Program-made: the position numbers and the translations under genes
Source: an uncultured Sunxiuqinia sp.
GTDB lineage: Bacteria; Bacteroidota; Bacteroidia; Bacteroidales; Prolixibacteraceae
Reading direction: 5' to 3'
DNA length: 64,000 bases
Assembly (NCBI RefSeq): GCF_947495665.1
Contig: NZ_CANLZV010000004.1
Coordinates: forward strand, 186,001-250,000
The notes under the pieces: generated by a model
What the model was told of the DNA's origin: nothing
Databases searched by the model: none
What the model saw: the letters and a program-made list of their open reading frames with translations, nothing else
Shown: positions 28,086 through 61,700 of the stretch, piece by piece
Layout of the letters: every line of letters starts with the position of its first letter
Numbering within the stretch: the first letter of the stretch is position 1

Positions 28086-29342
28086 ATGACCAAAAAATAT
28101 TTCCCGACGCTCCAGAATGTTAACCGGGCCAAATTGACCCTCAACGAAATTTTATCGTCCACTCCGCTCATGGAAAACATGAACCTGTCGGAGCAGTTTG
28201 GAGCCTCCGTGTTTTTAAAACGCGAAGACCTGCAGATTGTGCGCTCCTACAAAATTCGTGGTGCCTACAACAAAATCAAAAGCTTGAGCCAGGAAGAGCT
28301 GAAGAACGGCGTAGTATGTGCCAGCGCCGGAAACCACGCGCAAGGTGTGGCATATTCGTGCCAAAAGCTGGGGATTCACGGGAAGATTTACATGCCCACC
28401 ACCACGCCAAGACAGAAAATTAAGCAGGTGCAAATGTTTGGACGGGAGTTCGTGGAAATTGTTTTGATTGGCGACACTTATGACGATGCCAGTACTGAAG
28501 CCTGGAAAGACTGCACAGAAAATAAAAAGACCTTTATTCACCCCTTTGACGACCCCTTGATTATTGAAGGGCAGGCCACCACAGCCCTTGAAATTCTGCA
28601 GGATTCAACCCGGCAGATTGACTACCTTTTTGTTCCCATTGGCGGCGGCGGACTGATTGCCGGTGTAGGCAGCTATTTCAAACAGGTTCATCCCAGCACC
28701 AAAATCATCGGAGTTGAGCCGGCCGGAGCTCCTTCCATGTCCGAATCGCTGAAACAAGGCAAAGTTGTTACCCTTGAAAACATCGACAAATTTGTTGATG
28801 GCGCAGCCGTGCAACGTGTTGGCGAAGTTACTTTCGACATCTGCCAGCAAGTGATTGATGACATCGTACTGGTTCCGGAAGGCCGCATCTGCACCAAGAT
28901 TTTGGAACTGTACAACCGCGATGCCATTGTGATTGAGCCGGCCGGAGCCCTTTCCATTGCCGCGCTCGACTATTACGCCGATCAAATAAAAGGGAAAAAC
29001 GTGGTGTGCATTGTTTCGGGCAGCAACAACGACATTACCCGTACCGAAGAAATTAAAGAACGCTCCCTCTTGTTCGAAGGGCTGAAGCATTATTTCATCG
29101 TTCGTTTTCCGCAGCGGGCTGGAGCTCTACGCGACTTTGTGGAAAACGTGCTTGGACCTACCGACGACATTACCCACTTCGAATACACCAAAAAGAACAG
29201 CCGTGAACGAGGGCCTGCTTTTGTCGGCATCGAGGTACAGGACCACAAGGATGTGGAAGGACTGCTAAACCGAATGAAGGAAAATGGCTTTGTGTATGAA
29301 TATGTGAATGACAAACCCGACTTGTTTCAGTACTTGATATAG
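28086..29342 (+). CDS. ilvA: Biosynthetic threonine ammonia-lyase (threonine dehydratase)
   Basis: A 418-residue PLP enzyme converting threonine to 2-oxobutanoate, the first step of isoleucine synthesis. The start at 28086 gives MTKKYFPTLQNVNRA; further upstream codons are not conserved-looking. The PLP lysine is in RSYKIRGAYN, the substrate loop is ASAGNHAQGVAYS, and the phosphate-binding glycine loop is VPIGGGGLIAGVG. A single ACT-like regulatory domain (about 325-418, FIVRFPQRAGALRDFVENVL) makes this the short, Bacillus-like IlvA form and not the two-ACT enterobacterial one. The stop codon is abutted directly by an AG-rich dispersed repeat. No other ilv genes are near. Confidence 0.94.
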   Translation: MTKKYFPTLQNVNRAKLTLNEILSSTPLMENMNLSEQFGASVFLKREDLQIVRSYKIRGAYNKIKSLSQEELKNGVVCASAGNHAQGVAYSCQKLGIHGKIYMPTTTPRQKIKQVQMFGREFVEIVLIGDTYDDASTEAWKDCTENKKTFIHPFDDPLIIEGQATTALEILQDSTRQIDYLFVPIGGGGLIAGVGSYFKQVHPSTKIIGVEPAGAPSMSESLKQGKVVTLENIDKFVDGAAVQRVGEVTFDICQQVIDDIVLVPEGRICTKILELYNRDAIVIEPAGALSIAALDYYADQIKGKNVVCIVSGSNNDITRTEEIKERSLLFEGLKHYFIVRFPQRAGALRDFVENVLGPTDDITHFEYTKKNSRERGPAFVGIEVQDHKDVEGLLNRMKENGFVYEYVNDKPDLFQYLI

Positions 29343-29527
29343 GAGGCAGAGGGCAGAGAGCGAAGCGGTATGGGCGAAGAGCAGAGCGGTAAGAGAAGGA
29401 CGGTTCTGTACTTATGCACAAAAACAAGGCTCAGGCAAAGGCATAGGAGAGTTAATGCTTGCCTCTTGGTTCTAAAGCTAGCAAGGCAAATAGTTTAAAG
29501 TCTGGAGTCTAAAATCTAATATCTGGA
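29343..29527 (+). repeat. Dispersed AG-rich intergenic repeat, copy A
   Basis: It begins at the base after the ilvA stop codon. The first half is AG-rich (GGGCAGAGAGC and related units), leading to the core AAGGACGGTTCTGTACTTA at 29396-29414; the second half ends with GTCTGGAGTCTAAAATCTA near 29500-29518. The same order of elements is found in reverse orientation at 34742-34950, and the first half again at 35314-35401. The element is non-coding in any obvious frame. It fills most of the gap before the DUF5995-like gene at 29636. Confidence 0.75.
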
Positions 29528-29635
29528 AGTCTTCGCTCTTATCTGGAATTTGAAACTTGAAGCTCTGGATCTGAACCTTATCCGCAGGCAAACCGTTGAT
29601 TAGCTTGATGTAAAATAAGTCAACGCAATAAACTA

Positions 29636-30421
29636 ATGCCTGTTCTTATGCCAGCCAAACCACTGAAAACCATTGATGAGGTGATTGAAACCCTGGATCA
29701 GATTATCCAGCACTGCGAACACAATAACGATCCTTCCGGATACTTTGCAGCCTTATACCAGAAGGTCACCCTCAAAGTAAAAGAAGGAATTGAAAACAAC
29801 TATTTTGACAATGGTCCCCGCATGGAGGTGCTCGATGTACTGTTTGCCCAACGGTACATCGATGCCTGGGTCGGCAGCCGGGCCGGACTTCCGCTAACCC
29901 GCTCCTGGCAGAGAGCCTTTGACTTATCAACCAGCTACTGGCCCATTGTTTTGCAGCATCTGCTCATGGGCATGAACGCCCACATCAACCTCGACTTAGG
30001 CATTGCCGCTGCCCAAGTATCGCGTGGAAAGGAGCTGAATAAGCTGCACAATGACTTCAACCGGATCAATGAAATTCTCTCTTCGCTGGTGCATGAAGTG
30101 CAGGATGACCTCTCTCAGGTTTGGCCGGCCTTGAAATGGATTCTCAAATGGACCGGGAAAGTGGACGACTACCTGGTGGATTTCAGCATGCAGCTGGCCC
30201 GTGATGGCGCCTGGAAATTTGCCGGTTTGTTTTTCCATACACCAGACCATGAATTGGAAGCCTGCCTTCAGAAGCGCGACCAGCAGGTGGCCGACAAGGT
30301 AAGCGTTGTCCTCGACCCCGGATTAATTGCCAACGCCGTCCTGGCCTTGGTTCGCCTGACCGAACGTGGCTCCGTTTCCCAAAAAATCGGAAAGCTAAAA
30401 CACACAAAACCTTTCGCTTAG
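29636..30421 (+). CDS. DUF5995-like protein of unknown function
   Basis: A 261-residue soluble, mostly helical protein with no signal peptide. Motifs that stand out are DNGPRMEVLDVLFAQRYIDA, the HINLDLGIA stretch after HLLMGMNA, and ARDGAWKFAG. I recognise this pattern as the DUF5995 family, for which no function is established. The conserved MNAHINLDLG and the two nearby Asp/His-rich helices could form a metal or ligand site, but that is speculation. It stands alone between copy A of the dispersed repeat and the acetate-permease gene, on the same strand as both, with 293 bp upstream and 170 bp downstream. Confidence 0.7.
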   Translation: MPVLMPAKPLKTIDEVIETLDQIIQHCEHNNDPSGYFAALYQKVTLKVKEGIENNYFDNGPRMEVLDVLFAQRYIDAWVGSRAGLPLTRSWQRAFDLSTSYWPIVLQHLLMGMNAHINLDLGIAAAQVSRGKELNKLHNDFNRINEILSSLVHEVQDDLSQVWPALKWILKWTGKVDDYLVDFSMQLARDGAWKFAGLFFHTPDHELEACLQKRDQQVADKVSVVLDPGLIANAVLALVRLTERGSVSQKIGKLKHTKPFA

Positions 30422-30539
30422 TTAAGCGCTTCTTGCTTCAAACAGGCCTGCCCGCTCGTCCAATATTACCAAATCACTAATCCTTTAAAAGAACCATCAG
30501 CCGCAGGCTACAGCCCTGCCGTCAACTCGATTTAATTCT

Positions 30540-30547
30540 TAGTTTTG
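30540..30547 (+). promoter_or_regulatory. Candidate -7 element for the acetate-permease gene
   Basis: TAGTTTTG matches TAnnTTTG exactly, 44 bp before the ATG at 30592. No clear TTTG lies at the expected upstream distance. Confidence 0.3.
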
Positions 30548-30591
30548 CGCCGAATTTAAAAGAAAAATCAACACAACTAAAACACCTGTCA

Positions 30592-31161
30592 ATGAACAAC
30601 ACAAAACTAGGAAACCCTGCCGTAGTAGGCTTGGCAGGATTCGGTTTAACAACCCTTCTGCTTCAATTTCACAACCTCGGATGGATCGGCCTCGGCCCGG
30701 TACTGGCGATGGGTTTCATCTTTGGCGGACTGGCTCAGCTGGTAGCCGGTTTTCTGGAACAAAAAACAGGCAATAACTTTGGTTTTGCCGCTTTTTCAAG
30801 CTACGGTGCATTCTGGATCGGCCTGGGACTGATCTGGCTGTTCAACCACTTGGGGATTTACGAATCGTCGCACACCGACGTTGGTTTTTTCCTGCTGGGA
30901 TGGACCTTGCTCACGTTCATTTTCTGGATTGGAACATTCTTTATTCACCGTGCCATGTTTATCACCTTTACAACTCTTTTACTTGGTTTCATCTTCCTCG
31001 ATCTGGGGCATTTCGGATGGCCGGTGATGAACCAGGTAGCAGCAGTCGTTCTGATCGTTTGTGCCTTCTCGGCCTGGTACATGATGGGCGCTATTATTCT
31101 GAATGATTTGGCCAAACGCACCATCTTACCCGTTGGGCAAGCGCTGATCAAGACAAAATAA
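30592..31161 (+). CDS. Acetate uptake transporter, GPR1/FUN34/SatP (YaaH) family
   Basis: A 189-residue inner-membrane protein with six predicted membrane helices filling almost its whole length. The family signature NPAVVGLAGFGLTT is at the N-terminus, followed by MGFIFGGLAQLVAGFLEQKT and FAAFSSYGAFWIGLG; the final helix is VVLIVCAFSAWYMMGAII. Members such as SatP of Escherichia coli carry acetate and succinate with protons as hexameric channels. The gene has a candidate promoter and its own terminator, so it appears monocistronic. It would allow recapture of fermentation acids. Confidence 0.93.
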   Translation: MNNTKLGNPAVVGLAGFGLTTLLLQFHNLGWIGLGPVLAMGFIFGGLAQLVAGFLEQKTGNNFGFAAFSSYGAFWIGLGLIWLFNHLGIYESSHTDVGFFLLGWTLLTFIFWIGTFFIHRAMFITFTTLLLGFIFLDLGHFGWPVMNQVAAVVLIVCAFSAWYMMGAIILNDLAKRTILPVGQALIKTK

Positions 31162-31183
31162 AGAAAGCACCCAAACAACATTG

Positions 31184-31222
31184 AAAAGTATTGACGGATT
31201 CTATTCCCTCAATACTTTTTTT
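31184..31222 (+). terminator. Rho-independent terminator of the acetate-permease gene
   Basis: AAAGTATTGA (31185-31194) pairs with TCAATACTTT (31209-31218), extended by CGG/CCC opposition near the loop, and is followed by a T-run on the plus strand. It lies 23 bp after the stop at 31161. Confidence 0.85.
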
Positions 31223-31247
31223 GTTTCTACCCAAAACCTTAGGCATC

Positions 31248-31275
31248 AAAAAAAGCCTTCCTATTTGGAAGGCTT
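31248..31275 (-). terminator. Rho-independent terminator of the GH92 gene
   Basis: AAGCCTTCC (31253-31261), loop TATTT, GGAAGGCTT (31267-31275) is a perfect stem; the minus-strand transcript continues into a U-run. It lies 63 bp after the GH92 stop and faces the previous terminator across a convergent gene junction. Confidence 0.85.
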
Positions 31276-31337
31276 CTTATCTTTAGCTCAGGATATCTAA
31301 CATCCTGTTATTTTCAGAAACGGAAGTAGTAATACCA

Positions 31338-33611
31338 CTACTCGGTTGCTCCTGCTTCGCCCACATAAGCCATCGGCTTGGAAGTCATAAAGAACTCCAG
31401 CTTCCCGCCTTTCATCAGCTCATCGTGCGTGAAGAATGGCTTATCAAGCTCTTTACCATTCAGCACCAACTTCTCAATATATTTGTTCTCTCTTGAATTA
31501 TGGTGGGCTACAATTTCAAAAACACCACCCGGAACGTGAATTTTAGCCTGATCAACAATCGGACGGCCAATGGTGTAGGTAGGATCACCCGGACAAACCT
31601 GGTAAAATCCAATGGCATTCAGCACATACCAGGCCGACATTTGACCGCAGTCTTCGTTCCCGATAATTCCGGCCGGCGTGGGCAAGTAAAAATCATACAA
31701 AATCTGGTCGAGGTAGTTCTGGGCTTTCCAGGGCGAATTGGTCCAATTGTACAGAAAAGCCATGTGGTGACTGGGCTCATTGCCGTGCGCATACTGTCCG
31801 ATCAACCCAGTAATATCGCCCGAGGCATTTTCGCCCACAATTTCAGAACTGGTGGTAAACAGCGTATCGAGCTGGGTTTCAAAATTGGCTTTCCCGCCAT
31901 ACATCGCAATATGGTTTTCAATAGCATGCGGCACAAAATAGCTCCACTGGTAAGCATTCCCTTCTACATAATCGCTTCTTTCGTGTTCCGAAAAGCGGGG
32001 CTGAAAAGGAGTTCGCCAGCTTCCATCGCCATTTTTTCCGCGCATAAAGCCGGTGCTTTCATCAAAATACAGCTTGTAGTTTTCCGATTTTCTGAAATAG
32101 CGCGCAGCTGTTTCCTCATCGCCGGCTGCCTCGGCTATTTTGGCAATACACCAGTCGTAATAAGCCATTTCAACGCCATACGACACCGATTCAGAAATAG
32201 AGTCCGCCGGAACAAAACCATATTTCTCCTTGAAATAAATGTGCTTCGACATCACATTCTCTTCGCGTGTTCCCTTCACCTTTTCCAGCCATTCGGGTTG
32301 GTAGGTGGATGAAGTAACAGCCGCTTCGAGCCATGCTTTTAAATCGGCTTGCGGCACCAAACCTTTGGCCAATGCATCGGCCAAAACCGAAGTGGCCGGA
32401 TAACCCACCATGGTTCCGGTGTAATTCGAAGCCAGCGGCCATTTAGGTAACAAGCCTCCTTCGCGGTATTTCTGCACCAGCGACTCGGCCCATTCCCTGG
32501 CCTTTTCCGGGCGGATAATGGTCATCAACGGATGAAAAGCCCGGAAGGTATCCCACAACGAAAACACGCTGTAGTTGGTAAATCCTTCAGGAGCTGTCCG
32601 AATACTCTTATCCATTCCACGGTAGCGGCCATCAACATCCTGGTACGTAAAAGGCGCCATCATGGAATGATACAACGCAGTATAAAAGTTGGTTTTTACG
32701 TTCTGGTCATCGGTACTGATTTCAATGCCCTGCAAGGCTGCTCTCCATTCGTCTTGCGACTGGGCAACCGTAGCTTCAAAATCCCAGTCTGGCAGTTCGG
32801 CCTGCATGTTTTGTGCTGCTCCCTTTTCGTCTACAACCGAAAGGGCCACTTTTACCAACAAGGGCTCTTCTGCATTGGCAAACTGAAAATGCAGTTGAAT
32901 ATCACGTCCTGTTAGTTCGCTTTTATTGGTTTTTTCGTTTTCCGAATACACAGTCAATTGCTCGAAAGGCTCGGCAAACTCAATGCGGTAAGCCATCAGA
33001 TGATCGCTGGCCCAACCACTTGTTTTCTGCACACCCTCCAGGGTTTTATCATCAATTTTGCGGAACGAGTTTTCAACAATGCGGTGTCCCCAGTTGGGTT
33101 GAAGGATGTGCCCCAGGTTCAGCATCAGCTTTCTTTCCGAAGCTTTTGCGTAACTATACCGATGGAAGCCAACCCGCTTGGTAGCCGTCAGCTCGGCGGT
33201 AACACCGAAGTTTTTAAGCTGCACCTGATAGTAACCGGGAGTCGCCGATTCGTCCTTCTTGTCGAAGGCGCCAACAGGCTTTTGCTCATCGGTATTGGAG
33301 TACGGAAGCAACAGGACATCGCCCAAATCGCCAATGCCGGTGCCACTTAGGTGGGTATGGCTAAATCCGTAAATGGTAGAGTCTTCGTAATGATAACCAC
33401 TGCTGGCATCCCATCCCATAATATGGGTGTCGGGACTCAGTTGAACCATCCCGAAAGGAACGGTTGCCCCAGGGAAAGTGTGCCCGTGAAATCCGGTCCC
33501 GATAAAGGGATCGACATACTGTAGCGGGTCGAAATTTGATTCAGTTGTTGAACTTGGTGTACAGCCCGTTAAAAAGGCTGCCAACAAAAAGACAAATAGG
33601 CTCGTTTTCAT
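31338..33611 (-). CDS. GH92 family alpha-mannosidase, secreted lipoprotein
   Basis: A 757-residue exo-alpha-mannosidase of glycoside hydrolase family 92, calcium-dependent inverting enzymes acting mainly on alpha-1,2 and other mannosyl linkages of N-glycans and yeast mannan. The signal (MKTSLFVFLLAAFLTGC) makes it a lipoprotein. Family motifs are VDPFIGTGFHGHTFPGATVP, FGMVQLSPDT, YGFSHTHLSGTGIGDLGDV, YSVFSLWDTFRAFHPLMTII and the C-terminal GNEDCGQMSAWYVLNAIGFY. It is a stand-alone gene with its own terminator, distant from the SusC/SusD loci, so it may serve more than one mannose-containing substrate, including glycoproteins handled by locus C. Confidence 0.96.
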   Translation of the reverse strand: MKTSLFVFLLAAFLTGCTPSSTTESNFDPLQYVDPFIGTGFHGHTFPGATVPFGMVQLSPDTHIMGWDASSGYHYEDSTIYGFSHTHLSGTGIGDLGDVLLLPYSNTDEQKPVGAFDKKDESATPGYYQVQLKNFGVTAELTATKRVGFHRYSYAKASERKLMLNLGHILQPNWGHRIVENSFRKIDDKTLEGVQKTSGWASDHLMAYRIEFAEPFEQLTVYSENEKTNKSELTGRDIQLHFQFANAEEPLLVKVALSVVDEKGAAQNMQAELPDWDFEATVAQSQDEWRAALQGIEISTDDQNVKTNFYTALYHSMMAPFTYQDVDGRYRGMDKSIRTAPEGFTNYSVFSLWDTFRAFHPLMTIIRPEKAREWAESLVQKYREGGLLPKWPLASNYTGTMVGYPATSVLADALAKGLVPQADLKAWLEAAVTSSTYQPEWLEKVKGTREENVMSKHIYFKEKYGFVPADSISESVSYGVEMAYYDWCIAKIAEAAGDEETAARYFRKSENYKLYFDESTGFMRGKNGDGSWRTPFQPRFSEHERSDYVEGNAYQWSYFVPHAIENHIAMYGGKANFETQLDTLFTTSSEIVGENASGDITGLIGQYAHGNEPSHHMAFLYNWTNSPWKAQNYLDQILYDFYLPTPAGIIGNEDCGQMSAWYVLNAIGFYQVCPGDPTYTIGRPIVDQAKIHVPGGVFEIVAHHNSRENKYIEKLVLNGKELDKPFFTHDELMKGGKLEFFMTSKPMAYVGEAGATE

Positions 33612-33634
33612 TTTTCTTATTTTGCTTTACGAGG

Positions 33635-33642
33635 CAAAAATA
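33635..33642 (-). promoter_or_regulatory. Candidate -7 element for the GH92 gene
   Basis: The minus strand reads TATTTTTG, an exact TAnnTTTG match, about 24 bp before the ATG at 33611. The upstream TTTT is only 13 bp away, so the -33 element is uncertain. Confidence 0.35.
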
Positions 33643-33772
33643 GGATTTCCTGAATAAAAGGCCAGCCGATCCGCTTCTTTTTCAACGATGATCGAGGTTC
33701 TGCAAAGTACAACAAAGACAAATGGTCAGTTCGGGGTATGGTTAAGACCAACGCCTCAGAAAAACCTTCCGT

Positions 33773-34717
33773 TTAAAACGGCAGGTTGTCAAGGTCTACA
33801 TTGCCGCCACTGAGGATGATTCCTACTGTTTTGTTGGTTACAACAACTTTGTTTTCGAGAATGGCTGCCAAGGGGACAGCAGAAGATGGTTCCACAATGA
33901 TTTTCATGCGCTCCCAGATCATGCGCATGGCCTGTACAATGCCCCGTTCGGAAACGGTGACAATCTCATCGGTCTTGCGCTGAATGATGCGAAAATTCAT
34001 TTCGCCAACCGAGGTCAGCAAGCCATCGGCAATGGTTTTGGGGTCGACTGACGGAATCAGCTTGTTGGCATGAAACGAGCGATAGGCATCATCGGCTCCT
34101 TCGGGTTCGGCAGCAATTACCAGGCCTTTGGGATTTAGTTCGCGTCCGGCAATGGAAGTTCCACTCAACAAGCCACCACCACCAATGGGGCAAAGCAAAA
34201 TATCCAGCGGCCCGACCTCTTCCAACAGCTCTTTAGCTGCTGTTCCTTGTCCGGCAATCACATCAAAATTGTTGTACGGATGAATCTCAGTCGCTCCGGT
34301 TTTAGCCGCTATTTCGGCCAATGTTGATTCGCGACTGGCCAGCGTAGGCTCGCAAAAGGTGATTTGGGCACCATAGCCTTCCACTGCCTTTTTCTTGATG
34401 GAAGGCGCATTGCGGGGCATCACGATGTAAGCGGGCACGCCACGCATCCGCGCTGCCAAAGCCAAAGCTGCCGCATGGTTTCCAGAGGAATGGGTGCACA
34501 CCCCACTCGCCACCTGCTCGTTGCTTAATGAAAACACCGCATTGCAGGCCCCCCGAAATTTAAAGGCACCAACTTTTTGCAGGTTCTCGCACTTAAAATA
34601 CAGCTGCGCACCTGTTATTGCATTGAGCGAACGGGAAGTAAGCACCGGCGTACGATGTACCAGGGAACGAATCCGTTCATGCGCTTGAACCACATCGGTA
34701 TAATCGGGTAGTTTCAT
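33773..34717 (-). CDS. PLP-dependent serine/threonine dehydratase or serine racemase-like protein
   Basis: A 314-residue fold-type II PLP enzyme without an ACT domain. The PLP lysine is in KVGAFKFRGACN, the substrate loop is THSSGNHAAALALA and the cofactor-phosphate loop is PIGGGGLLSGTS; an acidic pocket motif EPEGADDAYRSF follows. The length and SSGNH loop match the eukaryote-like serine racemase/catabolic threonine dehydratase group and not IlvA. It could make D-serine for the envelope or simply degrade serine and threonine; sequence alone does not decide. A dispersed repeat copy lies directly upstream and the ABM gene beyond it, on the same strand. Confidence 0.88.
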   Translation of the reverse strand: MKLPDYTDVVQAHERIRSLVHRTPVLTSRSLNAITGAQLYFKCENLQKVGAFKFRGACNAVFSLSNEQVASGVCTHSSGNHAAALALAARMRGVPAYIVMPRNAPSIKKKAVEGYGAQITFCEPTLASRESTLAEIAAKTGATEIHPYNNFDVIAGQGTAAKELLEEVGPLDILLCPIGGGGLLSGTSIAGRELNPKGLVIAAEPEGADDAYRSFHANKLIPSVDPKTIADGLLTSVGEMNFRIIQRKTDEIVTVSERGIVQAMRMIWERMKIIVEPSSAVPLAAILENKVVVTNKTVGIILSGGNVDLDNLPF

Positions 34718-34741
34718 AAAATAAGAACTAAAACTTTTAAA

Positions 34742-34950
34742 TACTAGATTTTAGACTCCAGACTTTTAACTACTTGCTCCACTTTCTTTAGAAACAAGAG
34801 CCAGGAAACAGAAGGCAAACATCAACTTCCTTTGCCTATGCCTTCTCCTGTGCCTTGTTTTCGTGCATGAGTACATCGGTGCGTAAGTACAGAACCGTCC
34901 TTCTTTTCTGCTCTGCTCTTTGCCCTTACCACTTTGCTCTCTGCCCTTCC
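34742..34950 (-). repeat. Dispersed AG-rich intergenic repeat, copy B
   Basis: Read on the minus strand it starts directly after the stop codon of the ABM gene (34951), as copy A does after ilvA. It has the same order: AG-rich units with GGGCAGAGAGC, the 19-nt core AAGGACGGTTCTGTACTTA (34884-34902, identical to copy A), AAAACAAGGC, AAGGCATAGG, and the end segment GTCTGGAGTCTAAAATCTA (about 34747-34765). It fills nearly the whole 233-bp gap. Confidence 0.75.
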
Positions 34951-35244
34951 CTAGGCCAACTTCTTACAAACGTGGATCGCCGGCTCTGCTGCCGACAAGT
35001 CCACCAGCTGGGGAACAATTCGTGTAAAATGCTCCGAAGCCATATGCTGATTTAACAGCGACTTGCTTTCCCACTCTTCCAACATCATCAGTACCTCGGG
35101 GTTTTGGCGGTCCTGCACCAACTCATAGCGGATGCAACCTGCTTCTTTCAAGGTTTCCTGAACCAGCTCTTTCGCTAGGTTTAAAAACGAACCAAATTTA
35201 GTCTCATTCACCGCAAAGCGGGCAACTACTTTTATTGTGCTCAT
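34951..35244 (-). CDS. Antibiotic biosynthesis monooxygenase (ABM) domain protein
   Basis: A 97-residue single-domain protein of the dimeric alpha-beta barrel ABM fold. The start at 35244 (MSTIKVVARFAVNETKF) is where the domain begins; the frame continues upstream through a repeat element and is not used. Fold markers are the first strand IKVVARF, the helix FLNLAKELVQETLKEAGCIR, strands YELVQD and LMMLEEWES, and HMASEHFTRIVPQL. The His in the HxxSEHF stretch is usual for this family. Such proteins act as quinol or heme monooxygenases or bind small ligands; the substrate is unknown. Both flanks are occupied by dispersed repeats. Confidence 0.85.
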   Translation of the reverse strand: MSTIKVVARFAVNETKFGSFLNLAKELVQETLKEAGCIRYELVQDRQNPEVLMMLEEWESKSLLNQHMASEHFTRIVPQLVDLSAAEPAIHVCKKLA

Positions 35245-35313
35245 TGTTTGTATTTTAGTTTTAATTACATGGTCAGCTCTCTCCCAAATAGACAATTGTC
35301 GATCTCGCTTACC

Positions 35314-35401
35314 TAAACAAGGTTCATGAGTGCATTCTTTCATAAGTATAGAACCGTCCTTCTCTTACCGCTCTACTCTTACCTCTTTGCCCTTGCCCTT
35401 C
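35314..35401 (-). repeat. Dispersed AG-rich intergenic repeat, copy C (short)
   Basis: On the minus strand it begins directly after the stop codon of the phosphorylase gene (35402). It contains AG-rich units (GGGCAAGGGCAAAG, GTAAGAGTAGAGCGGTAAGAG) and the core AAGGACGGTTCTATACTTA (35343-35361), one base different from copies A and B, then ACTCATG and ACCTTGTTTA. The second half seen in A and B is missing or diverged. Confidence 0.7.
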
Positions 35402-36217
35402 CTATCCCATTCGGGCTATCAGGTTGGTCAGAATCAGAGTCATGGAAGGCTCGGAACGCATGGCAACTTCCTGCACCTCTTCGTGCGATATTTCAACAAT
35501 TTCGCCAGGCACACCGCTATCGGTTATAATGGAAATACCAAACACTTTCATATCCATATGGCGGGCAACAATAACTTCAGGCACGGTGGACATGCCCACT
35601 ACGTCGCCACCTAAAATGCGGAACATCTTGTATTCGGCCGGTGTCTCGAAAGTTGGTCCCTGCACACCCACATAAACCCCTTCCTTCACTTCAATTTTGT
35701 TTTTCAGGGCGATGAATTTGGCCTGGTCGCGCAGTTCTTTGCAATACACCTGACTCATATCGGGAAAACGAGGCCCCAGCTCATTTTCATTTTTACCGTG
35801 CAGCGGATGCTCCGGAAACATGTTGATGTGGTCGCTGATAATCATCAGGTCTCCCACTTTGTAGTCGGGGTTAAGCCCTCCAGTAGCATTGGAAACAATC
35901 AGATTACTGATTCCCAAGCGATTCATCACCCGCACCGGGAAAGTCACTTCCTTCATGGAATAGCCTTCATAATAATGAAAACGACCTTGCATAGCCAGAA
36001 TTTTCTTACCCCCCAGCTCGCCATAAATTAAAGTGCCGTTGTGCCCATCAACTGTCGATACCGGAAAATTTGGAATTTCCTTATACGGAATCTTCGTTTC
36101 AATCGCTATTTCATTGACCAAGCCACCCAGTCCGGAGCCCAGAATGATCCCTACTTCAACGTTGCCTTTGATACGTTCGCTTATGTAATTCGCGGTTACT
36201 TCTATTGTCTTTAACAT
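35402..36217 (-). CDS. punA: Purine nucleoside phosphorylase
   Basis: A 271-residue trimeric (type I) purine nucleoside phosphorylase, splitting inosine and guanosine with phosphate to base and ribose-1-phosphate in salvage. Phosphate loop is IILGSGLGGLV, then FHYYEGYSMKEVTFPVRVM, the base-site SNATGGLNPDY, SDHINMFPEHPL and the purine-pocket block GVYVGVQGPTFETPAEYKM with VVGMSTVPEVIVARHM. The N-terminal ATG at 36217 leaves 24 residues before the phosphate loop, as usual, so the start is sound even though it lies 62 bp inside the 3-prime end of lpxK. The two are certainly co-transcribed. Confidence 0.95.
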   Translation of the reverse strand: MLKTIEVTANYISERIKGNVEVGIILGSGLGGLVNEIAIETKIPYKEIPNFPVSTVDGHNGTLIYGELGGKKILAMQGRFHYYEGYSMKEVTFPVRVMNRLGISNLIVSNATGGLNPDYKVGDLMIISDHINMFPEHPLHGKNENELGPRFPDMSQVYCKELRDQAKFIALKNKIEVKEGVYVGVQGPTFETPAEYKMFRILGGDVVGMSTVPEVIVARHMDMKVFGISIITDSGVPGEIVEISHEEVQEVAMRSEPSMTLILTNLIARMG

Positions 36218-51659: not shown

Positions 51660-54600
51660 TCAGTTGCTTTTAATACACCGGACGGGGAAAGCATACGCCT
51701 TAGTTGTTGTGCTCATCGCGCTCCCCGAAGAGGTAATGGACAAATAATAGCCCGTGGTGCTCGAGTACTGCGTACCGCTCCAATAATAGCCGTTGCTTCC
51801 CCGGTATTGCAAGTTTCCGTTCGAATAGTACAAGTTCCCGGCCAGATGAAGTTTCAATACAGAGTTGAAGGCATCTGCACCCCTCGTCCAGTACTGAGGC
51901 GGGTTATCTGCATTGGTCCATTCAGTCAACGTAGGAATACGCCAGGTACCACCAAGCAACAGTCGACAAGGATCATTACTTACAGCCCATTGCGCACTCT
52001 GAGAAATCCCCGGAATCCAGCTATCCGCAGGCGCACGCGTTCCGTCGTACTTAAAGCCCTGCGAGCAGTTAAACTGCCAGTACCATCCCCCCGAAGCTTC
52101 GGAATTGTCGGTCAGGGCAGTTGGCTGACGATCGGCGCCCAGGTTCTGAGTTAACCAACAAGCTGCACTTCCCGACATGGTGCTGCTCACCGAATGATAA
52201 GTAACTGTTTTGCTTTCCGGTGCTCCGTTCTCACCTTCGGTATGCAGGACTGAAAATGTTTTTCGGCAAACCTTAAAGCTAGATTGTACCGGGCTGTAGG
52301 CTGTGCCTTCACTGTTAGTGGCAAAGGCACGAACATAATAAGTTGGCCCTTCGGTCAAGCCCGAAATCATTCCAGTAAAACTTCCAACACCACTTCCCAC
52401 TGAAACCTTGCTATCTGCGATGGTCGGATTTCCAGTTGTATTCCAGCACAAACCGCGGTCTGTGACTGGCTGGCCTCCGTCAATCGTCACAGTTGCTGTT
52501 CCGGCGGCTGTGCTTAAACTGATGGTTGAGTTTGGAATAACTACAGCACTAACGGAAGGCTTTGCCAACTGAACCTCATCGCGAATACACCTTACCGGGA
52601 ATGCATAAGCCTTGGTGGTTGTACTCAGGGCACTGCTTGATGTATTCAGGCTCAGGTAGTGCCCGGTTGTGGAGCTGTACTGGGTGCTGGTCCAATAATA
52701 GCCATGACTTCCACGATACTGCAAGTTTCCGTTCGAATAATACAAGTTTCCGGCCATGTGTAACTTCAGTTCCGAATTATAAGCATCTTGAACACTGTTC
52801 CAGAACTGTGGCGGAGCATCGGCTTTGGTCCATTCGGTCAGGGTTGGAATGCGCCATCCAAGGCCAAGCAACAAGTGGCACGGATCATTGCCCGAAGACC
52901 AGTTTGAGCTTTGAGAGATGGAGCCAATCCAGGATTCCCAGGCCGGTGCAGGCGAATAGGCCGTTCCGTTGTGTCTAAAACCTTGTTCTTTGTTAAACTG
53001 CCAGTACCAACCCGAAGCCGCTTCTGCATTGTCGTTATACGAAGTAGCTTCCCGGTCGGCTCCCAGGTTTTGAGTAAGCCAGCAAGCAGCTTTCCCCGAC
53101 ACATTGGTGCTAATGGAATGGTAAGTTACAATTTTGCTCACCGGAGCTCCATTTTGACCTTCAACATGAATAACATCAAACGAGCTTGGGCAGATCTTAA
53201 AACTGGTCACCGTTGGGCTGTAAGCCGTTCCTTTGCTGTTGATGGCATACGCCCTTACGTAATAGGTTGGTCCTTCTTTTAACCCGGTTAGCTTGCCGGT
53301 AAATTTACCAACATCGCTTCCAAGCGGCACGGTATTGTCCGCCGTTGTTGGTGTGCCGGAAGTATTCCAGCAAAAGCCCCTTTCAGTAACTTCAGCCCCT
53401 CCGTTTGAAGAAACCGTTGCCGTTCCTTCCGCAGTGGTCGCCGTCATCCCGGAAGTTGGGATTTCAACATCGCTTACCGATGGGATGCTGATGCTTACCT
53501 CATCGCGAATACAACGCAGAGAATAAGCATAGGCTTTGCTGGCCGTACTCATAACACTGCTTGAGGAATTGATGATAAAATAATGCCCCGTGGTTGAACT
53601 GTACTGCGTACTGCTCCAGTAGCTTCCTACGCTCCCCCGGTTCTGCAACACACCGGTTGAATAGTACAGATTCCCGGCCTGGTGCAGTTTCAATACCGAA
53701 TTATAGGCATCCGTTGCACTGTTCCAGAACTGAGGTGCTGCATCGGCTTTCGTCCACTCAGTGGAAGTTGGAATACGCCAGCCCAAACCAAGTTGTAAGG
53801 CGCAAGGATCCTCTGCGGCCGTCCAGCTCATGCTTTCTGAAATGCTTCCAACCCAAGTTGTCCAGGCATCCGAAGGTGTTCGACCACCATCAAACTTATA
53901 GCCTTGTTTCCGGTTGAACTGCCAGTACCAGCCTGAAGAAGCCTCCGTGGCATCGTTGTATGCCTTGGGCTGCTGGCTGGCTCCCAGGTTTTGGGTTAAC
54001 CAGCAAGCCGACTTGCCCGAGATATTGCTACTTATGGAATGATAGGTTACGGTTTTTGTTTCCGGAGCCCCATTCAGCCCTTCGGTGTGAATTACTTCAA
54101 ACTCAACCGGACAGATTTTAAAACTGGTTACTTCGGGGCTGTATGCCGTTCCTTCGCTGTTAGTTGCATAAGCACGTACATAGTAAGTATCACTCTCATT
54201 CAAACCTTCCAGCATACCGGTAAAGCTGCCCAAGCCACTTCCTACCGGAACAACTTTATCCGAAAGCGTTGGAGTCACTCCGGTCGTATTCCAACACAAT
54301 CCTCTTGCAAGAACCTTGGCTCCACCATTCGTGGTAACCGTGGCTGATCCTTCTGCGGTGGTTGTTTTCATTCCGGAAGTCGGTACTTCCACATTGCTGA
54401 CCGTGGGAATTGAAATCTTCAGGTCTTCGCGTAAACAACGCACCGGAAGCGCATAGGCTTTACTGATTGTTCCCATCACACTGCTTGAAGAAGTCAAAGC
54501 CAGGTAATGCCCGGTTGTTGAGGCGGACTGGGTACTGCTCCAATAATACCCAAGCCCACCGCGGTTTTGCAGCGCTCCGTTTGAATAATATAAATAACCG

Positions 54601-57600
54601 GCCAGGTGCAGCTGCAATTCGGACTTATAGGCATCAGATGCACTTGTCCAAAATTGTGGAGCGGCATCTGCATTAGTCCATTCAGCAGAAGTCGGCAGTC
54701 GCCATCCAAGGCCCAACAGCAGGTTACATGGGTCATTATTCAACGACCAGCTTGAACTCTGCGAGATGCTGGAGATCCAGCTGGTCCATGCATTGCTGGG
54801 GCTGTAAGAAGAACCATCGTGTTTATAACCCTGCGGCAGGTTAAACTGCCAATACCAGCCTGAAGCAGCCTCCGCATTATCACCAACAAATTCGCCTTGG
54901 CGGTCAGCTCCCAGGTTTTGAGTCAGCCAACAAGCCGATTTGCCGGAAACATCAGAACTAACAGAGTGGTAAGTTACGTTTTTGCTTACCGGTGCTCCAT
55001 TAACCCCTTCGGTATGAATAACAGTAAACGTTGCCGGACAAATTCTGAAGCTGGCATCCGCCGGGCTGTAAGCCACCCCTTCACTGTTGATGGCATAGGC
55101 ACGGATGTAATAGGTTGGCCCCTCAACAAGTCCGCCAATTGTACGGGTAAAACTTCCTACGCCATCGCCGGATGAAATTTTGCTGTCGGCAATGGTCGGA
55201 TTGCCGGTTGTGTTCCAGCACAATCCCCGATCCGTAACTTCTGCTCCTCCATCATTTGTAACCGTCGCATTTCCTGTCGCGGTGGTTTCAGTCATGGCTT
55301 CAGCTACAATCGTTACCTTGCTAACGGATGGTGTTGAAATAACCACTTTGTCGCGAATACAACGTACTGAGAAGGCATAGGCTTTACTGGCTGAGTTTGG
55401 GGCACTGGAAGAGGCATTCAAGTACAAATAATGTCCCGTAGTAGAGGCTGCCTGCGTGCTACTCCAGTAGTACCCATGACCTCCCCGGTTTTGCAGTCCT
55501 CCGGTCGAATAGTAAAGGTCTCCTGCCAGATGCAATTTCAAGTCAGAATTGTAGGCATCGGCTGCCTTTTGCCAGAACTGGGGAGCATCATCGGCATTTT
55601 CCCATTCCGCTTTGGTTGGAATCCGCCAGCCCAAACCAAGCAGCGAATTACAAGGGTCATTGCCTGCTGACCAGTTTGAGCTTTCTGAGATGCTTCCTGT
55701 CCAGGAAGTCCAATCGTTGTTTGGAACGTAGGAGTTCCCTACCGGCTGATAGCCTTGCTGGCGATTAAACTGCCAGTACCAGCCGGCGGCAGCCTCAGAG
55801 GCATCATTGTAAGCATCCGGTGCGCGATCAGCTCCCAGGTTTTGGGTCAACCAGCAGGCTGCTTCGCCTGAAATATTCGTGCTCACGGAATTGTACGTTA
55901 TTGTTTTACTAACCGCTGCTCCATTCAACCCTTCGGTATGAATCACTTCAAAACCGGTCGGACAAATCATGAAGCTGGTCACTTCCGGGCTGTAGCCCGT
56001 TCCCTGACTATTGGTTGCAAAAGCGCGAATGTAATAGGTAATTCCTTCTTTAAGGTTTTTCAGATCACCGGTAAAACTGCCCAAGCCGCTTCCGATGGTT
56101 AATGTGCTGTCTGAAACAGTTGGCGCATCGCCGGTTGTATTCCAGCACAATCCGCGGGTTTCCACAGCAGCACCTCCATCTGTTGTAACAATGGCTGTTC
56201 CTTTAGCCGCATCCGAGGTCATGCCCGAAACAGGCACCTCAACCTTACTCACCTGCGGTGCCGACAAAGTCATCTCCGTGCGGATACAACGCATTGGGAA
56301 AGCATAGGCCTTATTAATATAGGTAACGCTACTTCCACTCGTTGTTAAATAGAGATAATAGCCGGTGGTACCCGTATACCGGTCACTACTCCAGTAATAC
56401 CCATAGCTACCGCGGTTTTGTAATGCCCCGGTAGAATAATTCAACAGTCCTGCCAGATGCAATTTCAATTCTGAATTGTAGGCATCGGCCGCCTTTTGCC
56501 AGAACTGGGGAGCAGCATCGGCATTTTCCCATTCCGCTTTGGTTGGAATCCGCCAGCCCAGACCTAAAAGCAAGCGACAAGGATCATTCGCACTTCCCCA
56601 GTTAATGTTTTCAGAAATGCTGGAAGTCCAGGAAGTCCAGGCATTGTTCGGAATATAAGATGATCCTACCGGTTTGTACCCCTGAGAACGGTTAAACTGC
56701 CAGTACCAGCCAGAAGCAGCTTCGGACTTATCATTTACTGCAGTGGCTTGCTCGTCAGCTCCCAGGTTTTGCGTCAGCCAGCAAGCGGCTTCGCCCGAAA
56801 TCATACTGCCAACCGAGTGGTAAGTAACCGTTTTGCTTTCCGGTGCTCCATTCAAGCCGGCGGTGTGCATCACATCAAATTCATAAGGGCATATTCTGAA
56901 GCTGGTTACAGTGGGGCTATAAGCCGTTCCTTCACTGTTGGTGGCATAAGCCCGCACATAATAAACAGGCCCTTCTTTCAAATCAGCCAAGGTTCTTGTA
57001 AATTCCCCGGTTCCTCCTCCGGCCGTAATCACCTCGTCGGCAATGGTAGGTGTTGAATTGGTTTCACTCCAACACAAACCTCTTTCGGTTACCGGCATCC
57101 CCCCGTCCGAAGCAACAGTAGCCGTAGCATCCGCCGATGTGGCGGTCATCTCTTTTGCAGGTACCTCAACATCACTCACTACTGGCGCTGATTTGACAAG
57201 TTCGTCACGAATACAACGCACCGGAAATGCATTTGCCTTGTTGGAGTAGGTAACGCTGCTGCTTCCCGAATAAATGTATAAGTAATTTCCGTTGGTTGAA
57301 TTGTAGCGATCGCTACTCCAGTAATACCCATAAGTTCCGCGGTTTTGAAGCGCGCCGGTATTGTAAGCCAGAAGTCCGGCCTGGTGAAGTTTCAATTCGG
57401 AATGATAAGCATCCGCTGAATTTGTCCAGAATTGGGGAGCGGCGTCGGCATTTTCCCACTCCGCTTTGGTAGGAATACGCCAGCCTAAGCCCAACAACAA
57501 GTTACACGGATCATTGGCACTCATCCAGTTCACATTCTCCGAAATACTCGTTATCCATGGGGTCCAGCTATTGGCCGGCAGACGTGAACCATCGTATTTA

Positions 57601-58733
57601 TAGCCTTGTTTCCGGTTGAACTGCCAATACCAGCCGGCCGAAGCTTCGCTGGCATCGCTAACCGAAGTGGCTTGCTGGCTGGCTCCCAGGTTTTGGGTTA
57701 ACCAACAGGCCGATTTACCCGAAATACGTGAACTTACGGAACTATAAATTACCTTTTTCGTCTCCGGTGCTCCATTCAATCCTTCGGTGTGGATAATTTC
57801 AAAATTGGTTGGACATAACTGAAAACTGGTGGTTGACGGGCTGTAAGCTGTCCCTTCGCTGTTGACCGCATAGGCCCGCACATAGTACGTAACCCCTTCT
57901 TCTAAATTAGATAACAGCTCGGAGAACGTTCCCTTTCCGGAGCCACTTGGAAGCGTATGATCGTCAACCGTTGGGTTGCCAGTTGTGTTCCAGCAAAGTC
58001 CCCGGCTGGTTACTGCGGCACCTCCATCTGAAACAACAGTTGCCACACCTGCCGCCGAAGTTTCCGTTACCAGCGAATCCGGAATAACAACATCACTCAC
58101 CGATGGTAAAGCAATGGTAATTCCATCGCGGATACAACGAAGCGGCAAGGCATAAGCTTTAGAGAAATAGTTAATCCGGCTGCCGGAATACAAATCCATA
58201 AAATAAGCACTGCTGGTGTTAATCTGGGTATTACTCCAGTAACGTCCATAACTGCCTCTGCCGGCAAGTACGCCATTGTTGTATGCAAGCACCCCTGCTG
58301 AATGCAGTTTCAGTACCGAGGCAAAAGCATCGGCACCTGTTGTCCAGTCTTGCGGTGCTGCATCGGCATTTTCCCATTCGGTCTTAGTCGGGATGCGCCA
58401 TCCCAAGCCCAGCAACAGGTTACATGGATCCTTGGCTGCCACCCAGGCTGAGCTTTCCGAAATGCTCGTTGTCCAGGCTTCCCACGCATTCGAAGGTGTC
58501 CGGGAGCTATCGTATTTATAGCCCTGCGAACGATTGAACTGCCAGTACCAACCCGCCGAAGCTTCGGTGGCATCATTCATACTCGTTGCTTGCTGATCGG
58601 CTCCCAGGTTTTGGGTAAGCCAGCAACGCAAGTCACCGGACAAATCGGTACTTACGGAATGATAAACAACCGTTTTTGATTCCGGAGCCCCGCTAAATCC
58701 TTCCACATGCATAACCGTAAAAGCGGTGGGACA
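51660..58733 (-). repeat. Composite repeat array: eight FISUMP domains alternating with FN3-like repeats
   Basis: The period is about 920 bp. Approximate FISUMP domain limits, from the C-terminus: 51660-52270, 52572-53192, 53503-54113, 54428-55041, 55358-55963, 56280-56892, 57204-57816 and 58126-58733. Each domain keeps four Cys (before the first strand, in CWLTQNLGA, in NDPC and in VRC), suggesting two disulfides in an oxidising compartment. The copy at the C-terminus is the most divergent: it has a shorter TSW/SIS region, an extra Cys (FNCSQGF) and GGTWRIPT in place of LGWRIPT. Such near-identical DNA units invite recombination and assembly collapse. Confidence 0.85.
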
Positions 58734-61700
58734 GCTCTTGCTGCTGATATCAGGTCCGTAAGCCGTTCCAACACTGTTGGTGGCATAAGCCCGTACATAA
58801 TAAGTAGGTCCTTCAACCATTCCTGTAATGGTATCGCTATAGGTTCCCACTCCGGCTTCACCATTTAAGATGACCTCATCATCAAGCGTTGGGTTACCTG
58901 TTGTGTTCCACACCAGCCCCCTTTCGATTACTTCTGCACCCCCGTCATCAATAACATCAGCTGTTCCGAGTTGAGTTGAATCATCAATCGCCTCGAGCAC
59001 AACCGAGCCAAGCGTTGGCACAACCGGTGCGGTTAAAATCGTATCAATTTCGCCATAAGCCGTGCCCAGGCTGTTGGTGGCATAAGCACGGATATAATAC
59101 GTTGAGGCATGTTTCAGTCCTCCAAGAAAGGACTCGAACTCACCCAGTCCGCTACCATTTTTTGTTTTGGTCAACAGATCTATCGTGGGGATGGTGTCAC
59201 TACTCCAGCAAACGCCTCGCAGAATTACTTCGGCGCCGCCATCAGCAACCACATCACCTCCGCTAACAGCACCTGAACTCCAAATGGAATCGGACGCCAA
59301 GGTATGAACAGTCGGAATCGTCAGCGTTGTCAGGGTATCCACTTCGCCATAAGCCGTTCCCATGCTGTTGATGGCGTAAGCCCGTACATAGTAAGTCGTT
59401 CCCTCCTTCAGTTCAGTAACGTTCAGCGAGAACAAGCCTGTTCCGCCAGTGCTATGCTCCACCGATAAACTGTCGGTCGTTGGTGTTCCGAATGCACTGT
59501 AGCAAACCCCTCGAGCGGTTACCTCCACACGACCATTGTCCGTAACCTCACCACCACATACTGCCTCGTTCCGGGCTACCGATTTCGGTGCGCTGGTAAT
59601 GACTGTTGGAATGGTTGGCGTGGTAAATGAAATTGCTTCCGGGCTGAAACGGGTTCCAACCGCGTTGGTCGCATAGGCCCACACATAATAAGTGGTGCTG
59701 GCTTTCAGGTTTGTAATCGTTCCGTTGATTTCGGTTGAACCGGCTCCCAACGAAATGCTGCTGTCAGCCGGCATAGGAACCGTAGGGGCCTGACCGGTGG
59801 TATTCCAGTAAAGTCCCCGGTCGGTAACCGGAGAACCTCCATCCGTAATGACAGAGGCTGAACCGTCTCCCGTTGTCATGGTCAAGTTGGTCATCAAAGC
59901 AATACTTACCATTGGACGAATGGCTTCGGTCACCAGACTATCCAGCTGTCCGTAAGCCGTTCCCAGAATGTTGGTGGCAAAGGCTTTAATGTAGTATTTG
60001 GTTCCGGGCAACAATCCGCTGACGTTGCTCACATAAGCTCCTATTCCACCAGCCATATCATTCAGTTTAACGCCCGTTTCCAGGTCAGGATCGTTCGTCA
60101 GGCTCCAGCACACACCTCTCACATTGACCGGCATTCCTCCGTCATTGGTCACTTCACCTCCGCATACAGCATGCGTACTATCCACCGCCGAAGGTTTCGT
60201 TGTTGTTACTGCCGGAAGCATTACTTCCTTGGTACGGAAGAAGACCTGACTGCCATAACTTGTTCCAACCGCGTTGGTCGCATAGGCTCTTACATAGTAA
60301 TCGGTCTCCGGTTTCAGGCCAGACAAGTTGGCGGTGAAACGCCCAATACCCGTTGTGGTTTCATCAACCGTTTTGGTGGGAAGTGCCACCGTTGGCGCAT
60401 TGTGCATGCTCCAGCAAACCCCGCGAGCCAAGATGGGCGTCCTTCCATCGTCAGTAATTTCACCCCCGCTGGTTGCGGTTGTCGCAATAATATTTGTAAC
60501 CGGCGTTGTCGCCACCAGAGTTGGGAAAGCATCGGTCAAAAATGTCCGTTCCAAACCGTAGGCCACCCCAATCTTATTGACCGCATAAGCCCTTACATAA
60601 TAAAGCGTGTTCGGTTTCAGATCAGTCAACTTGCTGATGTAAGAGTCTGTTCCCGACCCGTTGTATGTCCGGCTGTCTTCGATGGTTGGGTTGGTATGTG
60701 TACTCCAGCACACTCCCTTAAGCGTCACATCAGCCCCGCCATCGCTGGTAATGTCTCCTCCGCAAACGGCGGTGTAACCTTCAATCTCGGTAACTTCATG
60801 GGTAAACAGTCGGGGCGCAGTTGGAAATATAGTTACTGAAACCTGGTTTCCATAAGCCGTACCTGCGCTGTTGGTTGCATAAGCCCGGATGTAATAGCTA
60901 ATGCTCATGTTCAGTCCACCAATGTTGCTGGTAAAATTACCGATTCCCGTACCATCCGAAGTTTTATTGACCACTACGGTGTCGGGATCAAAATTGGCAT
61001 CGGTGCTCCAAAGCACCCCGCGGTCAGTAATTTCAGCTCCTCCATCATCCGAGATTGTTCCTCCGGTAACCACTTCTGACTTGGTAACAGGAACAACATA
61101 ATTGGTTGTAATGCTTGGCAAAATTGCCGGAGTGGTGTAGCTCACCTCATTTCCGTAAGCCACTCCCTGGCTATTCACCGCATAAGCCCGCACATAATAG
61201 GTCGTCACCGGATCCAAGTCTGTCAAGGTACTTCTAAAGGTGTCTCCGTTAAGTTTGTCGTACCTTGTTTTGGTGTGTAAACTGACCGTTGGATTATGTC
61301 CGGTACTCCAGCAAACTCCTACATTGGTGATGCTTGAACCTCCGTTACTTTGAATAAGTCCACCTCCAACGGCTGATGTTCCGGTTGATGATGCCAGTAA
61401 TTCCTGCGTGGTTAAACTGGCAAAGTCAAGAGTAGTGAAGCTTAACTCATCGCCAAAGGCTATGCCGATTTCGTTCTCCGCATAAGCTCTTATGTAATAG
61501 GTTGTTCCTCGTTTTAACCCTTTGAGCTGGGTCGTGAAATAGCCAATACCGGTACCCGTTTGAGCCGATTTATTGACTTTAACCGTATCAGGCTTGAAGC
61601 CGGAAACAGTACTCCACACCATTCCACGGGTAGTAACCGATGACCCGCCATCATCGGAGATATGGCCCCCGCTATAAGCAGTCGTTCCGTTTACATACCA

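Follow-up and report, generated by a model that had tools for sequence, protein, structure and literature searches.

REP elements of enterobacteria, which go with RAYT transposases, are short palindromes often found near stop codons. Heptamer repeats have also been described. Rehm et al. 2015 (PMC4692102), in the accessible part of their paper, reported G-rich heptamers, GGGNATC in Xanthomonas and GGGGA(C/T)T in Nostoc, and stop-proximal G-rich heptamers are already published for these genera. TAACTGA heptamers of Beggiatoaceae, Cyanobacteria, and some Bacteroidetes have been presented by MacGregor 2015 (PMC4679880; excerpted text). A different insert, the intervening sequence (IVS) of 23S rRNA, e.g., in Coxiella, carries an S23/IVP ORF and is termed a selfish element in the available section of a report (PMC4990558). 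In part of another paper (PMC10053308), PF05635, the family of the IVP (23S rRNA intervening-sequence protein) genes, is stated to resemble Avd, a protein of diversity-generating retroelements.

The present study started from a window of 64,000 nucleotides of an uncultured Sunxiuqinia sp. (genome G000), in which an initial annotation had noticed an AG-rich repeat behind the TAG stop codons of three genes. The annotation knew of no described family of this kind; the published portion of the Xanthomonas and Nostoc work that we could retrieve (PMC4692102) already contains one. We report here that heptamer arrays abut sense stop codons, that IVP genes have inverted, element-specific arms, and that the left arms abut stops as well.

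Three repeat copies and their gene setting

The three copies (c1 to c3; Table 1) constitute a real repeat, as had been proposed. Their core, AAGGACGGTTCTGTACTTA, is exact in two copies and has one change in the third, with 0 occurrences expected from 100 shuffles. Each copy begins at the first base 3′ of the upstream gene's TAG and lies on that gene's coding strand. Furthermore, the second half common to both long copies is borne out, c1 and c2 forming an inverted pair of 83 nt that is 80% complementary. The term "dispersed" fails for the core, since only 3 sites exist in the 4,731,162-base (4.73-Mb) genome with up to 3 mismatches allowed. Sixty relatives give 1 more site, at the orthologous ABM stop of the congener G006 (up to 2 mismatches). 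Gene calls were made with an in-house script, and gene names other than IVP were assigned by eye.

Table 1. Coordinates of the copies, their parts, and the neighbouring genes in the window
Feature	Position	Strand	Remark
Copy c1, entire gap after ilvA	29343..29635	+	array-free 24-nt counterpart in four congeners
c1, RGCARAG array	29345-29386		
c1, core	29396-29414	+	exact
c1, RTCTRAA heptamers	about 29492-29525		
Copy c2, entire gap, ABM gene to dehydratase-like gene	34718..34950	-	orthologue in G006 (L004/L035)
c2, RGCARAG array	34911-34948		
c2, core	34884-34902	-	exact
c2, RTCTRAA heptamers			stop 17 nt short of next start
Copy c3, gap, phosphorylase gene to ABM gene	35245..35401	-	
c3, RGCARAG array			weak (score 13)
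c3, core	35343-35361	-	one change
ilvA-like gene, upstream of c1	28086..29342	+	name by eye
ABM (monooxygenase-like) gene, c3 to c2	34951..35244	-	name by eye
Purine nucleoside phosphorylase-like gene, upstream of c3	35402..36217	-	name by eye
Threonine dehydratase-like gene, downstream of c2	33773..34717	-	name by eye

The self-inverted scores of c1 to c3 (18, 21, and 22) are ordinary against a median of 22 for 297 gaps, and the fold z-scores (-0.5, -2.0, and -0.9) are ordinary too; simple hairpins were rejected on these grounds. By eye, no terminal repeats or target duplications were seen, and none of the three copies contains an IVP (PF05635) gene. An Rfam search of positions 29200-35500 returned no family at cut-off, the best match being an archaeal snoRNA (E 0.72). 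Elsewhere in the window, a coding stretch at positions 51775-64000 holds direct repeats in a long run, spaced about 924 and 300 nt apart.

The phosphorylase is 91% identical to that of Sunxiuqinia dokdonensis, in which it is followed after 12 nt by the dehydratase, the ABM gene and the repeats being both absent. Among the congeners searched, the ABM gene occurs in G006 only; it was not found in G001-G005 (G002 being 71% complete). Its neighbours on either side are operon genes with only 12 nt between them in S. dokdonensis, and it arrived along with repeat tracts on both sides.

From the ilvA stop to the next ATG, four congeners have an array-free gap of 24 nt behind a TGA, compared with 293 nt in the present genome. 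The outcome that the initial annotation named as refuting its stop-codon link was seen in part: there are array-free orthologous gaps, and the ilvA TAG has therefore changed in this lineage, but G006 shows a TAA followed by a different repeat. G006 has the ABM gene and c2, but where c1 and c3 would lie, at the ends of ilvA and of the phosphorylase gene, it bears a different composite. Three perfect copies of this composite all lie at ilvA/phosphorylase ends, two weak ones lie elsewhere, and none occurs in the present genome. Because neighbouring post-stop tracts are alike within each species and unlike between species, we read the tracts of the c1-c3 locus as probably copied among neighbouring gene ends.

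The retention of c2 at 83% identity in G006, the sense-strand site beside stops, and the arrays at an adaptor stop in several genera would suit a functional 3′-UTR or intercistronic RNA element under selection. We nevertheless consider such an element improbable, as two of the three sites in G006 bear the unrelated composite, most congeners are without arrays, no common fold emerged, and the locus matched no Rfam family at cut-off.

Heptamer arrays behind stop codons

The AG-rich part of the copies consists of degenerate RGCARAG heptamers in tandem. Although this start is shared by the copies, as first noticed, it is not private to them and recurs in this genome as RGCARAG arrays. When c2 was compared with its own genome by BLAST, the matches beyond c1-c3 were mostly to the AG-rich part. 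The RGCARAG pattern gave 35 + 27 matches in this genome against 3 + 3 for the reversed control pattern. Strong arrays in sampled stretches were all intergenic (19/19); two scrambled units gave none, and another scrambled unit gave 3 intergenic matches at score 16. A unit length of 7 dominated the intergenic periodicity (16 of 25 tracts, against 4 in the shuffle). GTCATTN heptamers formed one tract, and five of seven RTCTRAA tracts, including that of c2 and its orthologue, lay no more than 24 nt from a sense start. The arrays are patchy among relatives, with matches in 24 of 61 genomes; among congeners, G002-G004 had 0, G005 had 1, and G001 had 6.

Two other repeats were observed in the present genome. 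GTTATCR/TCAGTTA heptamers, which represent the published TAACTGA unit in reverse complement, occur at G000:C1:154969, C1:131079, and other places. This genome and G006 also have in common a dispersed element whose ends resemble CTCACCCCAGAGTC and GACTCTCCCCAAGCTC (G000:C19:1-369, 1000-1830; G006:C10:846600-849350).

The position of arrays relative to stop codons was assessed from 115 array rows, of which 29 from small loci of other genomes, 7 inside predicted genes, and 1 without a 3′ neighbour were removed, leaving 78. The 86 rows from genomes with G handles (those of G034 being among the matches listed) comprised 79 intergenic arrays and the 7 inside predicted genes. A same-strand stop was the 5′ neighbour of 48 of the 79 arrays, and 31 of these 48 begin -12 to +16 nt from it. 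Stop-abutting arrays thus amount to 31/78 in seven genomes (G034 again among the matches listed), compared with about 4% for random placement. The proposed stop-codon link is real and also general. Orthologous stops were counted several times within the 31; without repeats at orthologous stops, the value is 25/72. At their 3′ ends, arrays abutted antisense stops in 0/35 and sense starts in 0/43 cases; antisense starts were abutted in 3/31. Corresponding values for stop-abutting arrays per genome were 6/13 in the present genome, 13/33 in G006, 3/6 in G009, 4/5 in G030, 5/8 in G034 (among the matches listed), and 0/1 in G014. G023 has many RGCARAG arrays, yet 0/13 abut a stop. A general purine enrichment after all stops is weak at best, as 30-mers with at least 80% purine were found at +0 for 8 of 266 genes of the present genome, against 4 at +30 and 3 at +60.

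The stops of the 31 abutting arrays are TAG in 15, TAA in 13, and TGA in 3 cases. TAG is over-represented (15/31 versus 80/338, or 24%, in a 400-kb sample, p = 0.002), and it is enriched but not needed. A transposable element supplying or targeting a TAG stop, one of the possibilities raised initially, would explain this excess and the change of the ilvA stop from TGA to TAG. It would leave unexplained the 16 of 31 arrays that follow TAA or TGA, the presence of the core in three copies only of its own genome, and the absence, by eye, of terminal repeats and target duplications; TAG as the target was rejected on the stop counts, and we regard such an element as very improbable.

A stronger rival, although one that we still hold to be rather unlikely, is that the arrays are plain heptamer tracts of the STRR or G-rich heptamer kind, grown by slippage, with IVP genes merely among them. 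The post-stop slot would then be a tolerated site in tight operon gaps. The strand preference would follow if C-rich sense RNA invited Rho, or if transcription favoured growth of the purine strand. The dominance of unit length 7 agrees with slippage, and so do the unit number and variants at the orthologous adaptor stop, which differ in the g1, g4, g9, and g11 genomes. Array-free orthologous gaps are as small as 24, 15 (the G006:17241 site), and 12 nt, and the same polarity is given for the Xanthomonas and Nostoc heptamers in the accessible part of PMC4692102. However, one array-free gap, that between the OmpA-like and ilvA genes in the present genome, measures 206 nt, and the G006 array nonetheless lies at the stop. 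Moreover, slippage does not predict IVP genes whose two flanks are matching reverse complements, with sequences that differ from element to element, as described below.

IVP genes and their inverted arms

PF05635 genes occur in 45 of 61 Bacteroidota genomes, with up to 16 per genome. At the stop of an efflux-adaptor gene lies an array; after it come a PF05635 gene (Pfam, E 8.8e-28) and, ahead of the following gene, an array in inverted orientation. Arrays lie inverted on both sides of one IVP subfamily in the present genome, G006, G009, and G016, and, at the threshold applied, on a single side in G030. The same subfamily is found, by eye, between such arrays at two other genomic places, in G001 and G013. 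Such arms accompany one IVP subfamily at more than one genomic location. The adaptor junction of G002 and G004 lacks an IVP.

In the present genome, the PF05635 gene between the efflux adaptor and the ABC gene lies at G000:C19:68456-69003 (L088), and by eye other IVP-like genes are located there in G001, G003, and G018. IVP genes with inverted arms were also seen in five genomes between genes that resemble, by eye, those of the methylmalonyl-CoA mutase small and large subunits (L320, L334, L326, L329, and L332).

Of 23 additional IVP loci inspected by eye, most had inverted phrase pairs in their flanks, differing from element to element, and phrases of the RTCTRAA type were recognized as right arms of IVP elements. 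Arms were scored by locally aligning the upstream flank with the reverse-complemented downstream flank, each 250 nt long. From 60 loci, 3 with short flanks were dropped, leaving 57 (29 across the phylum and 28 of relatives). A third set of 26 loci was hand-picked from the listed matches; 10 of these came from three genomes of one genus, and one (L391) duplicated L336 of the second set. The median arm scores were 27 (29 loci), 27.5 (28), and 30.5 (26), compared with 18 each for swapped partners and for 161 ordinary genes, and direct orientation of the flanks gave 19. A score of at least 26 was reached by 34/57 and 17/26 IVP loci versus 4/161 ordinary genes. When pairings were permuted, 0 of 20000 reached the true pairing (true-pair mean 30.1; best permutation 21.3), with the own partner strictly the best right flank for 23/57 only. 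The median predicted duplex energy of the arms was -42.4, compared with -31.7 for swapped and -33.4 for ordinary flanks. Among loci scoring at least 26, the left arm starts -15 to +25 nt from a sense ORF end in 25/34, whereas 101/1700 random positions do so.

A full element would comprise, in order, a stop codon, a sense-strand left arm of degenerate heptamers, a small PF05635 gene, an inverted right arm, and the next start codon. It would fit the gap exactly, so that neither gene is broken. In the operon transcript, the arms could pair with each other, and the stem may make the insert tolerable to the host mRNA, perhaps through RNase III as in the case of the rRNA IVS. The arms might outlast loss of the IVP gene, and c1-c3 would then be surviving arms, subsequently copied among neighbouring gene ends. 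The three copies carry RGCARAG on the stop side, and c2 additionally has RTCTRAA near the next start, which is the layout of a gene-less IVP element. The ABC/permease gap of the present genome, considered as a possible remnant without an IVP, is no more than suggestive: on the right it resembles the right arm of the G002 IVP at that junction (score 30), its left part is unremarkable (15), and its self-inversion is 26 versus the median of 22.

A literature search covering few subscription journals gave no account of IVP genes with inverted arms in operon gaps. We judge it to be only a little short of an even chance that c1-c3 are IVP-less arms or remnants of operon-dwelling, 23S rRNA IVS-like elements, a little-noticed kind of insertion element. 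This remnant reading is held at that strength, and slippage is kept as a strong rival, because the direct tests of c1-c3 are weak. The three copies lack an IVP gene and are ordinary in self-inversion and folding, and their core AAGGACGGTTCTGTACTTA is present in 0/86 IVP flanks, on either side. At score 30, the AG ends of c1 to c3 matched 2, 4, and 1 of 86 IVP left flanks versus 2, 1, and 0 among 129 upstream flanks of ordinary genes, with no clear IVP preference. Most arrays, moreover, lack a neighbouring IVP gene (six such genes in 1.81 Mb holding at least 79 arrays). The 0/13 abutting arrays of G023 count against the remnant reading too, as does the ABM gene, which c3 and c2 flank in direct, not inverted, orientation.

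More tentatively still, a large share of the phrase-like heptamer and octamer repeats between Bacteroidota genes, c1-c3 included, may represent arms or remnants of mobile IVP elements. These would be mRNA intervening sequences that settle exactly from stop to start, shielded by two arms that drift freely while left and right match. If PF05635 genes are indeed carried as cargo by stop-to-start elements whose arms pair, these genes would gain a context, and the stop-abutting heptamers would be explained. This would also provide a testable claim on how bacterial operons tolerate inserts.

Comparison with known systems

Like REP elements, c1-c3 are extragenic and near stops; unlike them, they are not palindromic. 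With the Xanthomonas and Nostoc heptamers, as portrayed in the accessible part of PMC4692102, the arrays share the heptamer unit and the intergenic location, both of which hold for the copies (c3 being weak, with a score of 13). There, the 5′ end of the G-rich strand lies by an ORF, often less than 50 bp from a sense stop or overlapping it. The unit differs, being RGCARAG here, and a G-quadruplex was rejected as the common denominator, since 8/78 arrays and none of c1-c3 fit the pattern. In contrast to both ORF orientations in that account, the bias here appears to be for sense stops, the 5′ ORF being the nearer one for 42/48 sense stops and 19/30 antisense starts. The arrays here are, furthermore, linked to IVP genes.

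The TAACTGA repeats are likewise intergenic, missing in near relatives with shorter gaps, and mixed with other heptamers (PMC4679880, excerpted text). They differ in lying mostly upstream of start codons, and the excerpt reports no inverted arms or IVP genes.

Unlike the 23S rRNA IVS, the IVP elements described here reside in protein-gene operons and have arms of degenerate, element-specific heptamers. The copies c1-c3 stand further apart, as they contain no S23/IVP ORF, lie between protein genes and not in 23S rRNA, and do not on their own have the stem-forming terminal inverted repeats present at 34/57 and 17/26 IVP loci. What the IVP elements appear to have in common with the 23S rRNA IVS, as described in the available section of PMC4990558, is a small PF05635 gene flanked by terminal inverted repeats able to form a stem.
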